Source: Streptomyces sp. I05A-00742
GTDB lineage: Bacteria > Actinomycetota > Actinomycetes > Streptomycetales > Streptomycetaceae
DNA: 64,000 nucleotides
Direction: 5' to 3'
NCBI RefSeq assembly: GCF_013055795.1
Contig: NZ_JABETO010000019.1
Location: forward strand, 62,001-126,000
In this document: piece by piece, positions 22,767-32,504 of the stretch
Numbering within the stretch: the first letter of the stretch is position 1
Layout: every line of letters starts with the position of its first letter
Notes under the pieces: model-generated
Told to the model about the DNA's origin: nothing
Databases searched by the model: none
What the model saw: the letters and a program-made list of their open reading frames with translations, nothing else
Position numbers and translations under genes: made by a program

Positions 22767-23330
22767 TTAACCCGTGGACTCGCGGAGCCAGAGGATCAAG
22801 GAAGCCAGGACAACTCCGGCACGGTAGCGGTCGCCGAGCTTGTCGAACCGGGTCGCGATCGCGCGGAACTGCTTGAGGCGGGCGAAGCATCGTTCGACGA
22901 CGTTGCGGTCGCGGTAGGTGACCTTGTCGAAGGCCGGCGGCCGGCCGCCGAGGGCTCCGCGTCGGCGGCGGTTCGCCGCCTGGTCGCGGCGCTCGGGGAT
23001 CGTGGCAGCGATGCCCCGGCGCCTCAGCAGATGACGGATGGACCTGCTGGAATACGCCTTGTCACCCAGCACACGGTCCGGTGTCGTGCGCGGGCGGCCC
23101 GTGCCGAGGCGCGGGGTGCGGATGCCGTCGAGGACCTGGCCGAACGCCGTAGCGTCGTTGACGTTGCCGGGCGTGAGCACAATCGACAGGGGCAGGCCCC
23201 GGCCATCGACGGCGAGATGGACTTTGGTGGTCAGCCCGCCTCGGGAGCGGCCGAGGGCCTGGCGCGCCTGCGAGCGGCCCGGAACTTCCAGTTCGTCCCC
23301 GTTCGCATCCCCTTTTTGCGGGCGCCGACT
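22767..23330 (-). CDS. IS5-family transposase, second frame (orfB)
   Basis: It contains GRSRGGLTTKVHLAVDGRGLPLSIVLTPGNVNDATAF, LGDKAYSSRSIRHLLRRRGIAATIPERRDQ and ERCFARLKQFRAIATRFDKL. These hold the second Asp and the DDE Glu of the catalytic triad. No start codon suits it; it is probably made as a fusion with orfA by -1 frameshifting near 23309-23317. The frame stays open further upstream. It stops within the left terminal repeat. Confidence 0.85.
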   Translation of the reverse strand, partial: SRRPQKGDANGDELEVPGRSQARQALGRSRGGLTTKVHLAVDGRGLPLSIVLTPGNVNDATAFGQVLDGIRTPRLGTGRPRTTPDRVLGDKAYSSRSIRHLLRRRGIAATIPERRDQAANRRRRGALGGRPPAFDKVTYRDRNVVERCFARLKQFRAIATRFDKLGDRYRAGVVLASLILWLRESTG

Positions 23331-23656
23331 GCGTGCTGGTGGGCTCGGTTGATGGTGGAGTCGACGGAGACGGTCCATTCCACCCGGCCCACCGCGTCAT
23401 CGCGGACCTGAACATGCTCCAGCAACCGTGCCCAGGTGCCGTCCGCCTCCCAGCGGGCGAACCGCTCGTAGACGGTCTGCCACGGCCCGAACCGGTCGGG
23501 AAGATCCCGCCACGGAGCCCCGGTCCGCAGCCGCCACAGCACCCCGTTGACCACCTGCCGGTGATCACGCCACGGACGGCCCCGTCCGTCCACCTGAGGC
23601 AAAAGGGGCTCCATCCGCCTCCATGCCGCATCCGTCAACTCACCTCGACCTGCCAC
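23231..23656 (-). CDS. IS5-family transposase, first frame (orfA)
   Basis: It begins at a GTG (VAGRGELTDAAWRRMEPLLPQ) and has the N-terminal DUF4096-type domain WRDHRQVVNGVLWRLRTGAPWRDLPDRFGPWQTVYERFARW. The first catalytic Asp lies in WTVSVDSTINRAHQHAVGARKKG. A run of five A and four G (mRNA strand, 23317-23309) within codons R-K-K-G precedes the point where homology passes to the -1 frame. Confidence 0.85.
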   Translation of the reverse strand: MAGRGELTDAAWRRMEPLLPQVDGRGRPWRDHRQVVNGVLWRLRTGAPWRDLPDRFGPWQTVYERFARWEADGTWARLLEHVQVRDDAVGRVEWTVSVDSTINRAHQHAVGARKKGMRTGTNWKFRAARRRARPSAAPEAG

Positions 23657-25901: not shown

Positions 25902-26032
25902 GAGACAGCAAGCGCCCGCACTCTGCAACCCTCCACTTCCCCACCCCCACCTGGCGCGCCTTCACCGAAGCGCTCGGCCCCGCCCCCACAGGCGGAGCCG
26001 AGCGCCCGCCCGTTCACCCGGCGCGGACCTGA
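25799..26032 (+). CDS. DUF397 protein
   Basis: The 77-residue protein starts at a GTG eight bases after GAGGAG. It has the family signature IEWRKSTYSGGDADCLEATSG, then VSIRDSKRP and WRAFTEAL near the end. DUF397 proteins are the usual partners of XRE/DUF5753 regulators. The gene overlaps the XRE gene by 103 bases in another frame, which is more than the few bases usually seen. It also overlaps the convergent gene's 3' end by 19 bases. Confidence 0.88.
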   Translation: MRTPRGIEWRKSTYSGGDADCLEATSGISGLVSIRDSKRPHSATLHFPTPTWRAFTEALGPAPTGGAERPPVHPART

Positions 26033-27477
26033 ATCAGCGTCGACGCCGACGTCTGGTTGCCGACGTGGAACGTCAGAGCCGTGTCCGCCGGCGCCGGCGC
26101 GTCCGGCAGGGCCTTCACCGCGACCCAGGCCGTGGATGTGGCGCCCTTGGCCCGGAGCGCGAGGTCGACGCCGTCGAAGACGAGGGACTGTTCGTCGGGC
26201 TGCAGGGTCCCGCTGTAGGCCGTTGTGCCGAAGTGTGCGTCCATGACGGTCAGCTGGTACCCGCCTTCGGAGACGAAGCGCAGCCCCCTGCCCTGGGGGA
26301 GGGTCACGCGGATCTTCTGGGGCGGTACGCCACCGTCCGCGTCCGTCCGGAGCTGGACGCCCGGGTAGCGGGTCTCTCCGTGGCGGGTCAGGGTGACCGG
26401 TGTGCCGCCGGGGGACACCGAGAACCGGGCGGTGGCCGCCCCGACCCTCAGGTCGACCTGCCCGTGCAGGTCCGTGCCGCGCAGTCGCGCGTAGATCTGC
26501 ATGGGCCCTTCCTGGGGGCCGGCCTGGAGGGTGCCGGCGGGAACGGTCAGCCAGCCGTCGCCGTCCGTCTTGCCGGGGTAGGTGAGGGGCGCCTGGCCGC
26601 CGTACGAGAAGTGGGAGCCGGTGGAGTGGGGTTCGAGGCGCAGGGTCACGTCCTGGGAGAAGAGGGGCTGGTTGGTCTCGTCGAGGAACCGTACGCGGAA
26701 GCTGTCGAAGGGGGTGTCCTTCGGGGCGGAGAGGGGGGCGTCGGCGGAGCTCGCCGGGTCGGTCCCGGAGATGCGGTAGTCGTGGACGGGCGCCGAGAGC
26801 CGTACCGAGACGCAGGCCAGCATGGTGCCGGTCCAGTAGCCGTCGCCGGTGTCGTCCGCGAAGGAGAGGTAGGCGTCGGGCGACTGGGCGATGAAGGACT
26901 TCTGGTACTGCTTCCACTGCCGCCGCCAGCTGCCGCCGGGGATCGGGTCGCGCCGTGCCTGGGGAATGACGACGTAGTCGTTGTCCAAGGGCTTGCCGCC
27001 GTCGCGGACCGTTCCGTCGCTGACGCTGTAGTACATGGTGGTGTAGTGCGGGTCCTCGTTGTACCAGGGGGAGCTGGCCCAGAAGGTGACGTCGTACTGT
27101 GCGCCGGTGATCAGCCCGGAGAGGTGCTGTCCGACGTATCCGTGGCGGCCGTTCCCGCGGCCGACCAGGTCGATCGCGTTGCTGCTGTCCACCTTGTCCT
27201 CCGCGTCGCTCTGGGCGAAGGAGTATTCGTGGTTGGTGACGTCGATGTAGTCGCCCGGGTTGCCGCCGGGCTGCCCGTTGGCGTTGCCGCTGCCGCCGTA
27301 GTCCCAGTAGACGAGGCGCGTGTTGTCCCCGCCGGCGGCGAGGGCCCGGCTGAAACCGCATTCGTCGGAGTTGAAGCGCGGTGCGGCCCTGAAGCCTCCG
27401 TCCTTCACCAGGTTCGGGTTTCCGTCGCCGGCGGGACCGGCGGCGGATTCCTTCTCCGAGGGGGTGTTCGACGTCAT
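26014..27477 (-). CDS. protein with lectin-like N-part and one copy of the repeated 140-residue domain
   Basis: The 487-residue protein has no signal peptide. Residues 20-210 (NLVKDGGFRAAP, GDYIDVTNHEYSFAQ, LITGAQYDVTFWASSPWYNE) resemble DUF642/galactose-binding beta-sandwiches. A middle part (about 240-350) looks Ig-like (FDSFRVRFLDETNQPL, YPGKTDGDGWLTVPAGTLQ). Residues 352-487 (FSVSPGGTP, RYPGVQLRTDADGGVPPQ, VTLPQGRGLRF, TSTAWVAVKA) are homologous to both halves of the first gene of this operon. I do not know the domain. A GGAGG precedes the ATG. It is the last gene after the glycosyltransferase, 61 bases away. Confidence 0.75.
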   Translation of the reverse strand: MTSNTPSEKESAAGPAGDGNPNLVKDGGFRAAPRFNSDECGFSRALAAGGDNTRLVYWDYGGSGNANGQPGGNPGDYIDVTNHEYSFAQSDAEDKVDSSNAIDLVGRGNGRHGYVGQHLSGLITGAQYDVTFWASSPWYNEDPHYTTMYYSVSDGTVRDGGKPLDNDYVVIPQARRDPIPGGSWRRQWKQYQKSFIAQSPDAYLSFADDTGDGYWTGTMLACVSVRLSAPVHDYRISGTDPASSADAPLSAPKDTPFDSFRVRFLDETNQPLFSQDVTLRLEPHSTGSHFSYGGQAPLTYPGKTDGDGWLTVPAGTLQAGPQEGPMQIYARLRGTDLHGQVDLRVGAATARFSVSPGGTPVTLTRHGETRYPGVQLRTDADGGVPPQKIRVTLPQGRGLRFVSEGGYQLTVMDAHFGTTAYSGTLQPDEQSLVFDGVDLALRAKGATSTAWVAVKALPDAPAPADTALTFHVGNQTSASTLIQVRAG

Positions 27478-27538
27478 GGAGATCCTCCTTCGCTGGGGAG
27501 CGTGGGCAATCTCTGTTTCTGTTCGGTGATGCGGTGGT

Positions 27539-28675
27539 TCACCGTGCGGAGAGGGGCACGGATGCCGCGGGCGGGCCCGCCACCCGGAACGACCGCCGGC
27601 GCCGGGCGTCGTACAGCGACTCGACGGCCTCGCACCAGAGGTCGAGGTCAGGGGTCGCGCTCAGTTCGTCGGAACGGGCCTTGGCCCGGCGGGAGGCGCG
27701 TTCCCAGTTCACCGGGTCCCTGAGGGATTTCAGCGCGTGCATCCACGCGTGGAGGTCGTCACGGTAGGCGAAGATGCCCGCGTCGCCGAGGGATTCGACC
27801 AGCCCGGGGGTGGGATGGGCGATGACGGGAATTCCGGACGCCATCGCCTCCACCGCGACGCGTCCCCACGATTCGTACAGGCTCGGCATGAGCATCACGC
27901 GCGACCGGTTGTAGACGTGGGTGCGCATGTCGTTCCCGGGGACGCCATTGACGACTTCGCAGTTGGGCAGCTGCATCGGCGGCAGGACCTGGGTGCCGTA
28001 GGAGCCCTTGACGCCCAGGAAGTCCCAGTCGGGTGTCCAGGCGGCGACCTGCCAGAAGATGTCGCCGCCCTTGTCGGGATTGAGGTTGACGAGGGTCGCG
28101 CGGTCGCCCGGTTGCGTCCGGTAGTCCTCCGCGATGACCGGGGGGCGGACGACGATCGTGCGCCCCGGCAGGAATTCGGCGGGATAGCGCGCGTAGTGGA
28201 TCTCGCCGTCCCGCCGGATCCATTCGCTGTTGTAGACGACGAGGTCGGCTCCGGCCGCGTTGTGGTAACTCGTGGCGAAATTGTCGTGGCAGATCACGAT
28301 CACGGGTATCTGGCGGGCCTTGGCGAGACCGGACACGAGAGGAACGTTTTCGAAATGGGACAGGAGAACGTCCGCGCTCTGCGCCTCGGTGGCGAATTCG
28401 GTGCCCTCCTGGTACGGAACGACGCGCACTCCGTCGATCTCGTAGCTCTTCTCGATGGTTCCGGGATGGGACAGCCAGACGGTGACCCGGTGGCCGCGTT
28501 CGCTCAGGGGGCGGAGCATCGAGTGCAGCATCCACTCGGATCCCGCGTTGTGGGCCGGGGGATATCCGTACACCCGGGCCGTGATGGACATGCTCCGCGT
28601 CCGGACGGGCGTGGCCGGGCGGGGCGGGCGGGGTGCCACCGCGTCCACGTGCTGGTGCTCCTTCCGCATGGTCAC
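27539..28675 (-). CDS. GT4-family glycosyltransferase
   Basis: The protein is about 378 residues. The N-terminal half has AHNAGSEWMLHSMLRPLSERGHRVTVWLS (acceptor side). The C-terminal half has TLVNLNPDKGGDIFWQVA and the nucleotide-sugar motif MLMPSLYESWGRVAVEAMASGIPVIAH, whose two Glu residues are spaced as in GT4 retaining enzymes. The GTG start overlaps the upstream stop (GTGA); an ATG six bases on is possible. It stands between two genes that share an unrecognised domain, so it may glycosylate them or a common partner. Donor sugar unknown. Confidence 0.88.
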   Translation of the reverse strand: MTMRKEHQHVDAVAPRPPRPATPVRTRSMSITARVYGYPPAHNAGSEWMLHSMLRPLSERGHRVTVWLSHPGTIEKSYEIDGVRVVPYQEGTEFATEAQSADVLLSHFENVPLVSGLAKARQIPVIVICHDNFATSYHNAAGADLVVYNSEWIRRDGEIHYARYPAEFLPGRTIVVRPPVIAEDYRTQPGDRATLVNLNPDKGGDIFWQVAAWTPDWDFLGVKGSYGTQVLPPMQLPNCEVVNGVPGNDMRTHVYNRSRVMLMPSLYESWGRVAVEAMASGIPVIAHPTPGLVESLGDAGIFAYRDDLHAWMHALKSLRDPVNWERASRRAKARSDELSATPDLDLWCEAVESLYDARRRRSFRVAGPPAASVPLSAR

Positions 28676-29586
28676 CAGGTCCGCGCGTCCACGTCGACGG
28701 GCGTGGAGAGCGAGGTGCGGACGCCCACACAGAAAGTCAGGGCCGTCGATTCCTTCGGCTCCGCCGGAACACCGGCCGTCGCCTTCACGGCGACCCAGAC
28801 CGTGGACGTCGTTCCCTTTCCCGACAGGAAAAGATTGACGCCCGGGAAAATGAGGGCCTGCCCGTCCGCCGCCGCGTGCCCGGGGAAGGGGTGCGTCGTT
28901 CCGTGGGTGTCCTGCACGGTCAGCAGGCAGTGGGAGCCGCCCTCGGCGTTGAACCGCAGGCCCTTTCCCCGGGGGAGGGTGACGTAGACGTCCTGCGGGG
29001 GGACCGTGCCGTCGTCGTCGGCCCGTACGCGTACGCCCGGGTAGCCGACCGGGTGGTCGCGGTCCAGCGTCACGTCGGGCGGGCCTCCGGGGGAGACGGA
29101 GAAGGGAATGTCGTCCACGACGCGGACAAGTGTGGAGGGAGATGTTCGGTCACCCACGCAGAAGAGCAGTTCCGTGCTTCCCGGCAAGGCGTTGTCGGAA
29201 GCCGTCACCGCCACCCAGGCCGCGGATTTCGCTCCCTTTCCCGGCAGGGCCGGGTCGACGTTCTGGAAGGTGAGGGACCGCCCGTCCGGCGACAGGGTCC
29301 CGGGATATGGGGTCGCGGTCCCGTGGGCGCCCAGCACGGTCAGCAGACAATTCGGGCCGCTCTCGGGGAAGAACTCCAGGCCCTTTCCCCGGGGGAGGGC
29401 GACGTAGACGTCCTGCGGTAACACCGGGCCGTCGCCTCCGGCTTCGAGCCGTACTCCCGGGTAGCCGGATTCGCCGGCGAGGGCGAGCACCACGTCGGGC
29501 GGTCCGCCCGGCGTGACCGTGAACGGTGCGGTGGGGCGGTCACCGGGGGCCGGGCCGTCGGCGGGCGTGGACTGGACAGCGGGCAC
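28672..29586 (-). CDS. tandem two-domain protein of unknown family (TTA codon)
   Basis: The 304-residue protein is two copies of one domain, residues 21-156 and 161-299, aligned at a 140-residue offset (PFTVTPGGPPDV and PFSVSPGGPPDV, GYPGVR, LPQDVYVALPRGKGL and PPQDVYVTLPRGKGL, WVAV, FCVG). Each has one or two Cys (NCLLTV/HCLLTV, LFCVG/TFCVG). There is no signal peptide. A third copy closes the last gene of this operon. Leu56 is encoded by TTA (29419-29421), implying bldA control. Start GTG follows GAGAGGAACGCCGCT. The fold is probably a beta-sandwich; function unknown. Confidence 0.78.
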   Translation of the reverse strand: MPAVQSTPADGPAPGDRPTAPFTVTPGGPPDVVLALAGESGYPGVRLEAGGDGPVLPQDVYVALPRGKGLEFFPESGPNCLLTVLGAHGTATPYPGTLSPDGRSLTFQNVDPALPGKGAKSAAWVAVTASDNALPGSTELLFCVGDRTSPSTLVRVVDDIPFSVSPGGPPDVTLDRDHPVGYPGVRVRADDDGTVPPQDVYVTLPRGKGLRFNAEGGSHCLLTVQDTHGTTHPFPGHAAADGQALIFPGVNLFLSGKGTTSTVWVAVKATAGVPAEPKESTALTFCVGVRTSLSTPVDVDARTW

Positions 29587-31268: not shown

Positions 31269-32504
31269 TCAGAGCGCCTGCGCCGCCGGCTTGACCAGGT
31301 CGCGGACCGTCTTGGACTTCACGTACTCGCCGATGGCGGTCATCTCCCACTCGCCCGAGTACTGGCGGATGAACTTGCACATCAGTACGCCCGTTTTGGG
31401 CTCCGAGCCTGTGAGGTCGAAGCGGACGAGTTCCTCGCCGGTCTGCCCGTCCATCAGGCGGCAGTACGCCTTGGCGACGTTTGTGAACTTCTGGCCGCTG
31501 TAGGAGCTGACGGTGAAGACGAGGCCGGTGACCTCGGGCGGCAGGCCGCCGAGGTGGACGGTGATGGTCTCGTCGTCGCCGGAGCCGGCGCCGGTGAGGT
31601 TGTCGCCGGAGTGCTGGACGGTGCCGCCGAGGATCATCAGCTTGCCGAAGTAGCAGGAGTCGATCATGTTGCGCTGGGGGCCGAAGGCGATGACCGAGGC
31701 GTCCAGGTCGATGGCGCGGGCGCCGAAGGCGGGCTCCCAGCCGAGGCCCATGCGCACGGACTGGGTGAGCGGACGGCCGCCCTTGACGAGGGAGACGGTC
31801 TGGTTCTTCTGGAGGCTCACCCGGCCCTTGTCCAGGTTGATCTTCCCGGGCGCGCCCGTGGCGGGTGCGGGCGGCGCGGGCGGGGCCGGGGGAGCGCCGA
31901 ACGCCCCGGCGGGCGCGGGCGGTGCCGGGGGTGCGGGCGGGGCCATCGGCGCGGCGGCCGGAGCGGGCGGTGTGATCGGGGCGGCGGCCGGAGCCGGAGC
32001 CGGCTCCTCGACGCTCACGCCGAAGTCCGTGGCGATGCCGGCCAGGCCGTTGGCGTACCCCTGGCCGACCGCGCGCACCTTCCAGACGCCGTTGCGCCGG
32101 TAGACCTCGACGACGACGAGGGCCGTCTCGGAGCCGAGTCTCGGCGGCGTGAAGGTGGCCAGGGGCGCGCCGGTGGCGGTGTCGCGGACAGTCGCGGTGG
32201 GTTCGGTGCCGGCGAAGGTGGTGCCGGGGGCGTCCAGGCTCGCGGTGACGACGATCTTCTCGATGCCGGCGGGGACGGCGGTGGTGTCGACGGTGATCGA
32301 GTCGGGGGTGCCCGCCGTCCCGGCGCGGTGGGTCACGCCGGGGCCCGCGGGCTGGTTGTAGAAGACGAAGTCGTCGTCGGAGCGCACCTTGCCGTCGGCG
32401 GTGAGCAGCAGGCCCGAGACGTCGAGCCGCGCGGGGGCGGCGACGTCCACCGTCACACGGGTGACGGAGAGCGGGATGTTCGAGCCGGGGGTCATAGCGG
32501 TCAT
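31269..32504 (-). CDS. double TerD-domain protein with Pro/Ala linker
   Basis: The 411-residue protein has one TerD-like domain at about residues 1-170 (GSNIPLSVTRVTVDV, SDDDFVFYNQP, VVVEVYRRNGVWKVRAVGQGYANGLAGIATDFGV). A linker of PAPAAAPITPPAP and APPAPPAPPAP type spans about 170-228. The second TerD domain (about 229-411) has NLDKGRVSLQKNQTVSLVKGG, IDLDASVIAFG and EWEMTAIGEYVKSKTVRDLV. TerD domains bind calcium and belong to tellurite/chemical-stress systems. No other ter genes are nearby, so it acts outside a full ter cluster. Confidence 0.9.
   Translation of the reverse strand: MTAMTPGSNIPLSVTRVTVDVAAPARLDVSGLLLTADGKVRSDDDFVFYNQPAGPGVTHRAGTAGTPDSITVDTTAVPAGIEKIVVTASLDAPGTTFAGTEPTATVRDTATGAPLATFTPPRLGSETALVVVEVYRRNGVWKVRAVGQGYANGLAGIATDFGVSVEEPAPAPAAAPITPPAPAAAPMAPPAPPAPPAPAGAFGAPPAPPAPPAPATGAPGKINLDKGRVSLQKNQTVSLVKGGRPLTQSVRMGLGWEPAFGARAIDLDASVIAFGPQRNMIDSCYFGKLMILGGTVQHSGDNLTGAGSGDDETITVHLGGLPPEVTGLVFTVSSYSGQKFTNVAKAYCRLMDGQTGEELVRFDLTGSEPKTGVLMCKFIRQYSGEWEMTAIGEYVKSKTVRDLVKPAAQAL

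Follow-up and report, generated by a model that had tools for sequence, protein, structure and literature searches.

Cytoplasmic glycosyltransferases encoded beside the proteins they modify are known from GtfAB, which modifies serine-rich repeat adhesins, and from HMW1C; in both cases the substrates have export signals and secretion partners. For the mycobacteriophages Che8 and Rita, Freeman 2023 is reportedly the source cited for capsid glycosylation. PMC11256854 describes the capsid glycosylation of these two phages as phage-encoded, with a glycosyltransferase that presumably acts on a structural protein of its own element. PMC8195603 proposes family 4 glycosyltransferases (GT4s) as effectors, together with intracellular lectin-like sensors, in conflicts of multicellular bacteria. 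Here we describe a three-gene locus on the minus strand of a 64,000-nt stretch of DNA from Streptomyces sp. I05A-00742 (the window; all coordinates are window positions), in which the gene for a GT4 of 378 amino acids (aa) is flanked on either side by a gene, P1 (304 aa) and P3 (487 aa), whose product carries a ~139-residue domain with a predicted immunoglobulin (Ig)-like fold. Our reading, to which we assign a rough probability of 0.45, is that a phage-related cytoplasmic GT4 serves specifically to modify a set of Ig-like proteins that can be exchanged for one another. Neither GT4 enzymes nor Ig-like domains nor glycosyltransferases of phages are new in themselves; what is new, as far as searched, is the domain family and the arrangement, which were not found in the libraries or in the open-access literature, where titles and abstract openings gave nothing on this system.

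The locus shares features with each of the described systems. As with GtfAB and HMW1C, the enzyme is encoded beside its substrate family, here a presumed one, whereas 60 of the 61 domain proteins collected lack a Sec-like N-terminus by hydropathy; the Sec signal and LPxTG anchor of serine-rich-repeat adhesins are not found here either, with one signal-like N-terminus and two loose anchor patterns among the 61. As with Che8 and Rita in PMC11256854, the enzyme's kin may act on a structural protein of their own element, 16 of 17 distant GT4 relatives being encoded no more than two genes away from a major head protein; the difference is that the window locus lies outside a recognised prophage and that the partner is a modular Ig-like protein. 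With the conflict GT4s, as presented in PMC8195603, it has in common the enzyme family, lectin-like or propeller partners, the lack of secretion signals and a multicellular actinomycete as host, but the window GT4 is free-standing and no STAND nucleoside triphosphatase (NTPase) or TRADD-N module was recognised by eye beside its gene.

A repeated domain with a predicted Ig-like fold

When P1 was compared with itself, 68 of 164 positions were identical at an offset of 140 and at most 26 at every other offset from 120 to 159, in agreement with the original prediction that P1 consists of two tandem copies at this distance. The further copy expected at the end of P3 was also found, at residues 350-487, where it aligns with the two P1 copies at 51% and 55-56% identity. 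The shared motifs that had been listed are present, but they vary among copies, and P3 ends in FHVG instead of FCVG. A chance repeat could be ruled out because the same genes were found again in other genomes. In the organism's own genome (7.13 Mb, 105 contigs) five more copies are present in an 803-aa protein encoded on a different contig (L007:6577-8988, minus strand, contig C1, one TTA codon), and no glycosyltransferase was recognised beside this gene.

The domain had been called unrecognised, and a match to a well-described family did not turn up: no Pfam or NCBIfam family scored over its cut-off. A Pfam scan of 77 domain copies gave CopC in one member (best E 0.0019) and Big_7 in one (0.0094) and nothing else at E <= 0.01, and known Ig-like and cohesin families were not matched over their curated cut-offs; the CopC-like hint amounts to an E value of about 0.07 plus this one of the 77 copies. 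The scanned copies are those of alignment A3, which holds 77 of 84, the omitted ones being four of the duplicate loci L117 and L127, two of L076 and one of L078. Assignment to a known domain family was rejected, as nothing convincing appeared in Pfam, NCBIfam, PADLOC or the PDB sequences with either a single protein or a profile, and P3 had no match in PHROGs.

From the 77-row alignment, AlphaFold2 built a confident all-beta model (predicted local distance difference test, pLDDT, 94.5; predicted template modelling score, pTM, 0.88), which bears out the earlier suggestion of a beta-sandwich. The nearest fold found by VIA-align was TTHA1873 (7wrk; Z 10.4, root mean square deviation 2.8 over 125 residues), followed by the cohesin module 2vo8 (Z 9.9, deviation 2.6 over 116 residues) and several pilins of Gram-positive bacteria (Z about 9); rows within Z 1 count as ties, and these are practically tied. 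The predicted fold resembles those of cohesin and pilin modules and TTHA1873, but identity to them is 9-15% and none has a sequence match to the domain. The viral fold library returned low-scoring Ig-like matches, and no paper on TTHA1873 was found in the open-access literature. A model of P3 (pLDDT 55 from 5 sequences) was not used. We conclude that the domain is a new sequence family with a predicted Ig-like or cohesin-like fold; the Streptomycetaceae thereby gain a domain family whose structure is predicted with confidence and whose enzyme partner is constant.

The domain and GT4 occur together

The genus sample contained 295 genomes, of which 11 matched the domain; in the family sample 14 of 297 genomes did (2 of 17 genera), and in the phylum sample 1 of 396, namely the window's own genome. 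As far as sampled, the domain does not occur outside the family to which the window's organism belongs. The cut-off of this search lets short matches in: G219 is counted among the 11 solely by a 59-residue match, which is found also in G018 and G051, and the matches of G495, G514 and G383 span 46-72 residues, no domain gene having been called in the G383 stretch.

Searching the 295 genus genomes with GT4 at E <= 1e-60 yielded matches in 26. System-type GT4s (set a, 74-100% identical) occupy 10 loci in 9 genomes, and every one of the 10 adjoins a domain gene. All 9 genomes belong to the 11 with the domain; the remaining two are G164, which has the domain and no such GT4, and G219 with its short match. 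In a scan of named genomes, 28 GT4 loci were found, 27 from Streptomyces and one from Kitasatospora, and a domain gene lies within the stretch examined at 26 of them, the exceptions being L125, at a contig end, and L132, a partial match of 59% identity. Because the named loci partly coincide with those of the genus sample, these counts are not independent. The co-occurrence of domain and glycosyltransferase, whose absence would have told against the original prediction, is thus conserved. Genes of the relatives were called with a codon-usage caller made for this analysis, and their starts and small genes are therefore uncertain.

Kinship of GT4 with prophage head modules

The enzyme scores over the cut-offs of the generic GT4 models PF13692 (56.2 bits; cut-off 27) and PF00534 (51.9; 26.4). 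The E-x7-E motif is present in all 32 system GT4s, and 17 distant GT4s (set b, 43-58% identical, loci L088-L104) carry it as well, 14 by a strict pattern and 3 by the printed E-x7-E. The window GT4 matches phrog_26352 with an E value of 2.8e-135 over residues 25-361 of 378, and the GT4s of L089 and L104 match it too, which connects loci in cells with a family of phage proteins of unassigned function. At all distant loci except L104 the GT4 gene stands in a prophage-type cluster, at most two genes away from a major head protein family. Six of these head proteins were tested and belong to phrog_10 or phrog_283; the two neighbours tested are the head-tail adaptor phrog_137. The window GT4 is not beside a major head protein. 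Judging from this gene order, which would be expected if an enzyme acts on the structural protein encoded next to it, the GT4 relatives at L088-L104 are candidate capsid-modifying enzymes. The distant GT4s pair with two different head-protein families.

In a midpoint-rooted tree of 49 GT4s, those of the system (32) group together as a single clade (100/99), with greater diversity among the others, and descent of the enzyme from phage to cell appears likely. Among phage records, GT4 matched Streptomyces phage TurkishDelight only (two records, 39% identity). Pattern scans of IMG/VR with GT4 and A1, whose patterns reach close relatives only, confirmed nothing. A free phage or plasmid location was rejected, as P1 had no match in phage or plasmid records.

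Exchangeable N-terminal parts and evolutionary rates

The domain stands at the C-terminal end of its proteins in one to five copies, and the parts ahead of it (N-parts) differ. They include NHL propellers, ricin with RCC1, Gly-rich parts, a family that we named DPEW, parts resembling a carbohydrate-binding module (CBM), beta/gamma crystallin, a Vgb-type propeller and a lamin-tail domain; the last occurs in the protein of L151:6310-7539, which has a membrane-glycosyltransferase-like neighbour (by eye). The N-part of P3 matches CBM_4_9 at E 0.1 and the NCBIfam model choice_anch_C at E 8.7e-4. The lectin-like nature proposed for it therefore holds weakly: all six related N-parts scanned match CBM_4_9 at E <= 0.1 (best 8e-4), but choice_anch_C, at 19.6 bits against a cut-off of 120, falls far short. 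The Gly-rich N-part of L079 matches phrog_7388 (1e-8) and phrog_11583, both without assigned function.

Mapped on a tree of the system GT4s (32), the NHL label, borne by 6 rows, changes 5 times, and as low a number was reached in 174 of 500 shuffles, so the NHL N-part does not track the enzyme lineage; the test covered the NHL label only, and truncated contigs may hide N-parts. The partner proteins also change faster than GT4. Ratios of non-synonymous to synonymous substitution rates, formed in this analysis from computed values for the window against L105-L108, were 0.17-0.23 for GT4 (4 pairs), 0.35-0.71 for P1 (4 pairs) and 0.32-0.76 for P3 (3 pairs).

A second enzyme beside diverged domain copies

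Diverged copies of the domain adjoin a family 2 glycosyltransferase (GT2), unrelated to GT4, at L149, L150, L153 and L154 in three genomes; L153 has two domain genes, and the Pfam assignment was run on the L153 enzyme only. At L186-L205 the GT2 gene is often followed by one for a conserved ~54-aa probable membrane protein.

Both the N-parts and the GT2 loci bear on an alternative in which the product of GT4 is a glycan of the surface or wall, to which the domain proteins, unmodified themselves, bind. Carbohydrate-binding N-parts (ricin, CBM-like) exist, and GT2 usually lacks domain genes and often has the small probable membrane protein; further, an acyltransferase-like gene (by eye) adjoins GT4 in L078 and lies three genes away in L084, whereas inspection by eye of the other listed loci showed no further glycan gene next to GT4. 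Under this alternative, it is awkward that the sugar-binding ends vary while the domain stays constant and that related prophage GT4s sit in head modules. We consider it unlikely.

Export signals and place of action

The original prediction that signal peptides are absent was upheld: neither P1 nor P3 begins with a hydrophobic stretch, their best 12-residue hydropathy means within the first 45 residues being 0.97 and -0.28, and among the 61 domain proteins only that of L149 has a Sec-like N-terminus. This count comes from hydropathy, not SignalP, and includes fragments whose true start is unknown (for example L080 with 113 aa, L087, L118 with 99 aa and L123 with 89 aa). The two proteins with the loose L[PA].T[GAS] pattern in their last 60 residues have no membrane-like stretch. 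A cytoplasmic place of action is as plausible for the domain proteins as the surface or a non-Sec release.

Absence of export signals would also suit an intracellular conflict (immune-like) system, in which cytoplasmic domain proteins sense an invader through their lectin or propeller ends and GT4 is the effector on molecules of the invader or the host. Such an arrangement would agree with the patchy spread (11/295 and 14/297 genomes), with N-part exchange and with the proposal of PMC8195603. GT4 also exceeds the cut-off of PF20706 (GT4-conflict; 34.7 bits against 26), but this is its third-best Pfam match after the two generic GT4 models and may reflect general GT4 similarity; no paper on GT4-conflict was found in the open-access literature. 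PADLOC at E <= 0.01 returned 0 families for P1, GT4, P3, the 803-aa paralogue and one GT2, and no NTPase or nuclease was recognised by eye in the immediate neighbours, as judged from gene calls without a family scan. Weighing these points, we give the conflict explanation a small chance of being right.

The related siphophage-like tail clusters at L206, L207 and L077 (G090) and at L208 and L079 (G036, contig C2) encode a tape measure, a major tail protein and an endolysin, plus a holin-like product (E 3e-4). Reading by eye revealed neither a terminase nor a portal or capsid gene in them, and they possibly represent a tailocin-like element. The domain proteins might be fibres or tip proteins of a phage-tail-like particle, decorated by GT4. 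In G090 the pair is indeed embedded in the tail cluster, where it separates the major tail protein from four genes that adjoin that protein without a break in G036; on G036 contig C2 the related cluster with endolysin starts about 3 kb from the pair, and the Gly-rich N-part at L079 matches phrog_7388. Across genomes, however, there is no association: the tail-like element was found in 2 of 15 domain genomes and in 5 of 34 others, and was rejected as a partner of the system. That tail protein finds no match in the window's genome, the cluster's proteins are unmatched near the other domain loci searched, P1 matches nothing in phage records, and the narrow IMG/VR pattern scan was empty, which together make the tail explanation highly improbable. 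A contractile sheath was likewise rejected as a partner, scoring above the cut-off in 8 of the 15 domain genomes and in 19 of the 34 others. The 15 were chosen from 23 genomes with a domain match, omitting G219, G383, G462, G483, G495, G514, G515 and G528.

Proposed modification of the neighbouring proteins

We favour modification of the neighbours because a constant enzyme stands beside changing proteins that share a tag, because two unrelated enzyme families are paired with this tag, and because the enzyme has relatives in phage head modules. According to this proposal, a soluble cytoplasmic GT4, kin of the Streptomyces prophage head-module enzymes, would attach a sugar to the products of its neighbouring genes, and the shared Ig-like domain would be its recognition tag, its acceptor, or both. 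A candidate acceptor site is the conserved S-x-S-T in the turn that precedes the model's last strand, where Ser or Thr occupies position S131 in 95% and T132 in 91% of 77 aligned copies; S131 and T132 are thus candidate acceptors. The variable N-part (propeller, lectin, Gly-rich, crystallin or CBM-like) would be the working end, swapped between loci, and the modified proteins would act either inside the cell or outside it after a non-Sec release, by lysis or by some carrier. A more far-reaching version seems to us possible, if doubtful: a phage capsid-modifying glycosyltransferase may have been domesticated in the Streptomycetaceae into a modular glycoprotein system, with one enzyme, fast-evolving signal-less recognition proteins tagged by the Ig-like domain, and GT2 replacing GT4 in a side branch.

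Several points weigh against the proposed modification or parts of it. The conserved Ser/Thr at S131 and T132 may be structural. Domain genes without an adjacent GT4 or GT2 exist at L007, L085, L086, L087, L147, L148, L151 and L160. At 20 of 24 GT2 loci examined, the 20 being the fetched subset of 40 further matches, there is no adjacent domain gene, and GT2 therefore has another primary job, its pairing with the domain being an addition to a common enzyme. An exit route was sought and none was found, the tail-like element and the contractile sheath showing the counts given above. The phage parallel is based on gene position, and the long branches of L088, L100, L103 and L104 may be misplaced on the GT4 tree; because of these four branches and the midpoint root, the direction from phage to cell is likely, not proven. 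If the partners are glycosylated, the locus would represent a small cytoplasmic protein-glycosylation module whose ~139-residue tag is borne by many folds, and it would become testable what glycosyltransferases do in the head modules of actinomycete phages.

Gene layout, TTA codons and neighbourhood

The coordinates, strands and lengths of the three genes, the overlap, the gap and the single TTA codon of P1 are all as originally described (Table 1); GT4 and P3 contain no TTA. A promoter scan found no promoter, shuffled sequences giving a mean of 0.1.

Table 1. Positions of the locus features in the window
Feature	Position	Strand	Remarks
P1	28672..29586	-	304 aa, GTG start; new domain twice in tandem
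Domain copy 1 (P1a)	29110..29526	-	AlphaFold2 model, pLDDT 94.5
Domain copy 2 (P1b)	28681..29109	-	
TTA codon	29419..29421	-	codon 56 of P1
GTGA overlap of P1 stop and GT4 start	28672..28675	-	4 bases
Family 4 glycosyltransferase (GT4)	27539..28675	-	378 aa; intact E-x7-E motif; match to phage family phrog_26352
Gap from GT4 to P3	27478..27538		61 bases
P3	26014..27477	-	487 aa; CBM-like N-part, then middle region, then single C-terminal domain copy
CBM-like N-part of P3	26773..27420	-	weak CBM_4_9 / choice-of-anchor C similarity
Middle region of P3	26428..26772	-	shared with L105, L108 and L081; judged Ig-like by eye
Domain copy 3, C-terminus of P3	26017..26430	-	P3 residues 350-487
AGGAGG, probable ribosome-binding site of P3	27484..27489	-	read by eye

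TTA codons in Streptomyces mark control by bldA. They are found in 10 of 58 domain genes, 4 of 35 system GT4 genes, 0 of 17 GT4 genes of the prophage set and 35 of 841 other locus genes, the last including prophage genes; against these other genes the Fisher p value is 3e-4 for domain genes and 0.06 for GT4s. Per 1000 codons the frequencies are 0.36 (domain), 0.30 (system GT4), 0 (prophage-set GT4) and 0.15 (other). The developmental switching proposed from the codon in P1 finds some support in the enrichment in domain genes: the excess agrees with bldA control but could also reflect recent acquisition, as newly acquired genes may have it anyway.

A transposase-like remnant in two pieces (by eye) lies at 22767-23554, about 2.5 kb from the locus, and a TerD-like protein (by eye) is encoded at 31269-32504, its two halves separated by a long Pro/Ala linker. 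G051 has flanking genes in common with the window, and a relative of the TerD-like protein lies in the same neighbourhood there. At its locus L081:9059-10804, GT4 and the end of P3 form a single frame of 581 aa from which the tail of GT4 and the CBM-like part are missing, either through a deletion fusion or through an assembly error.

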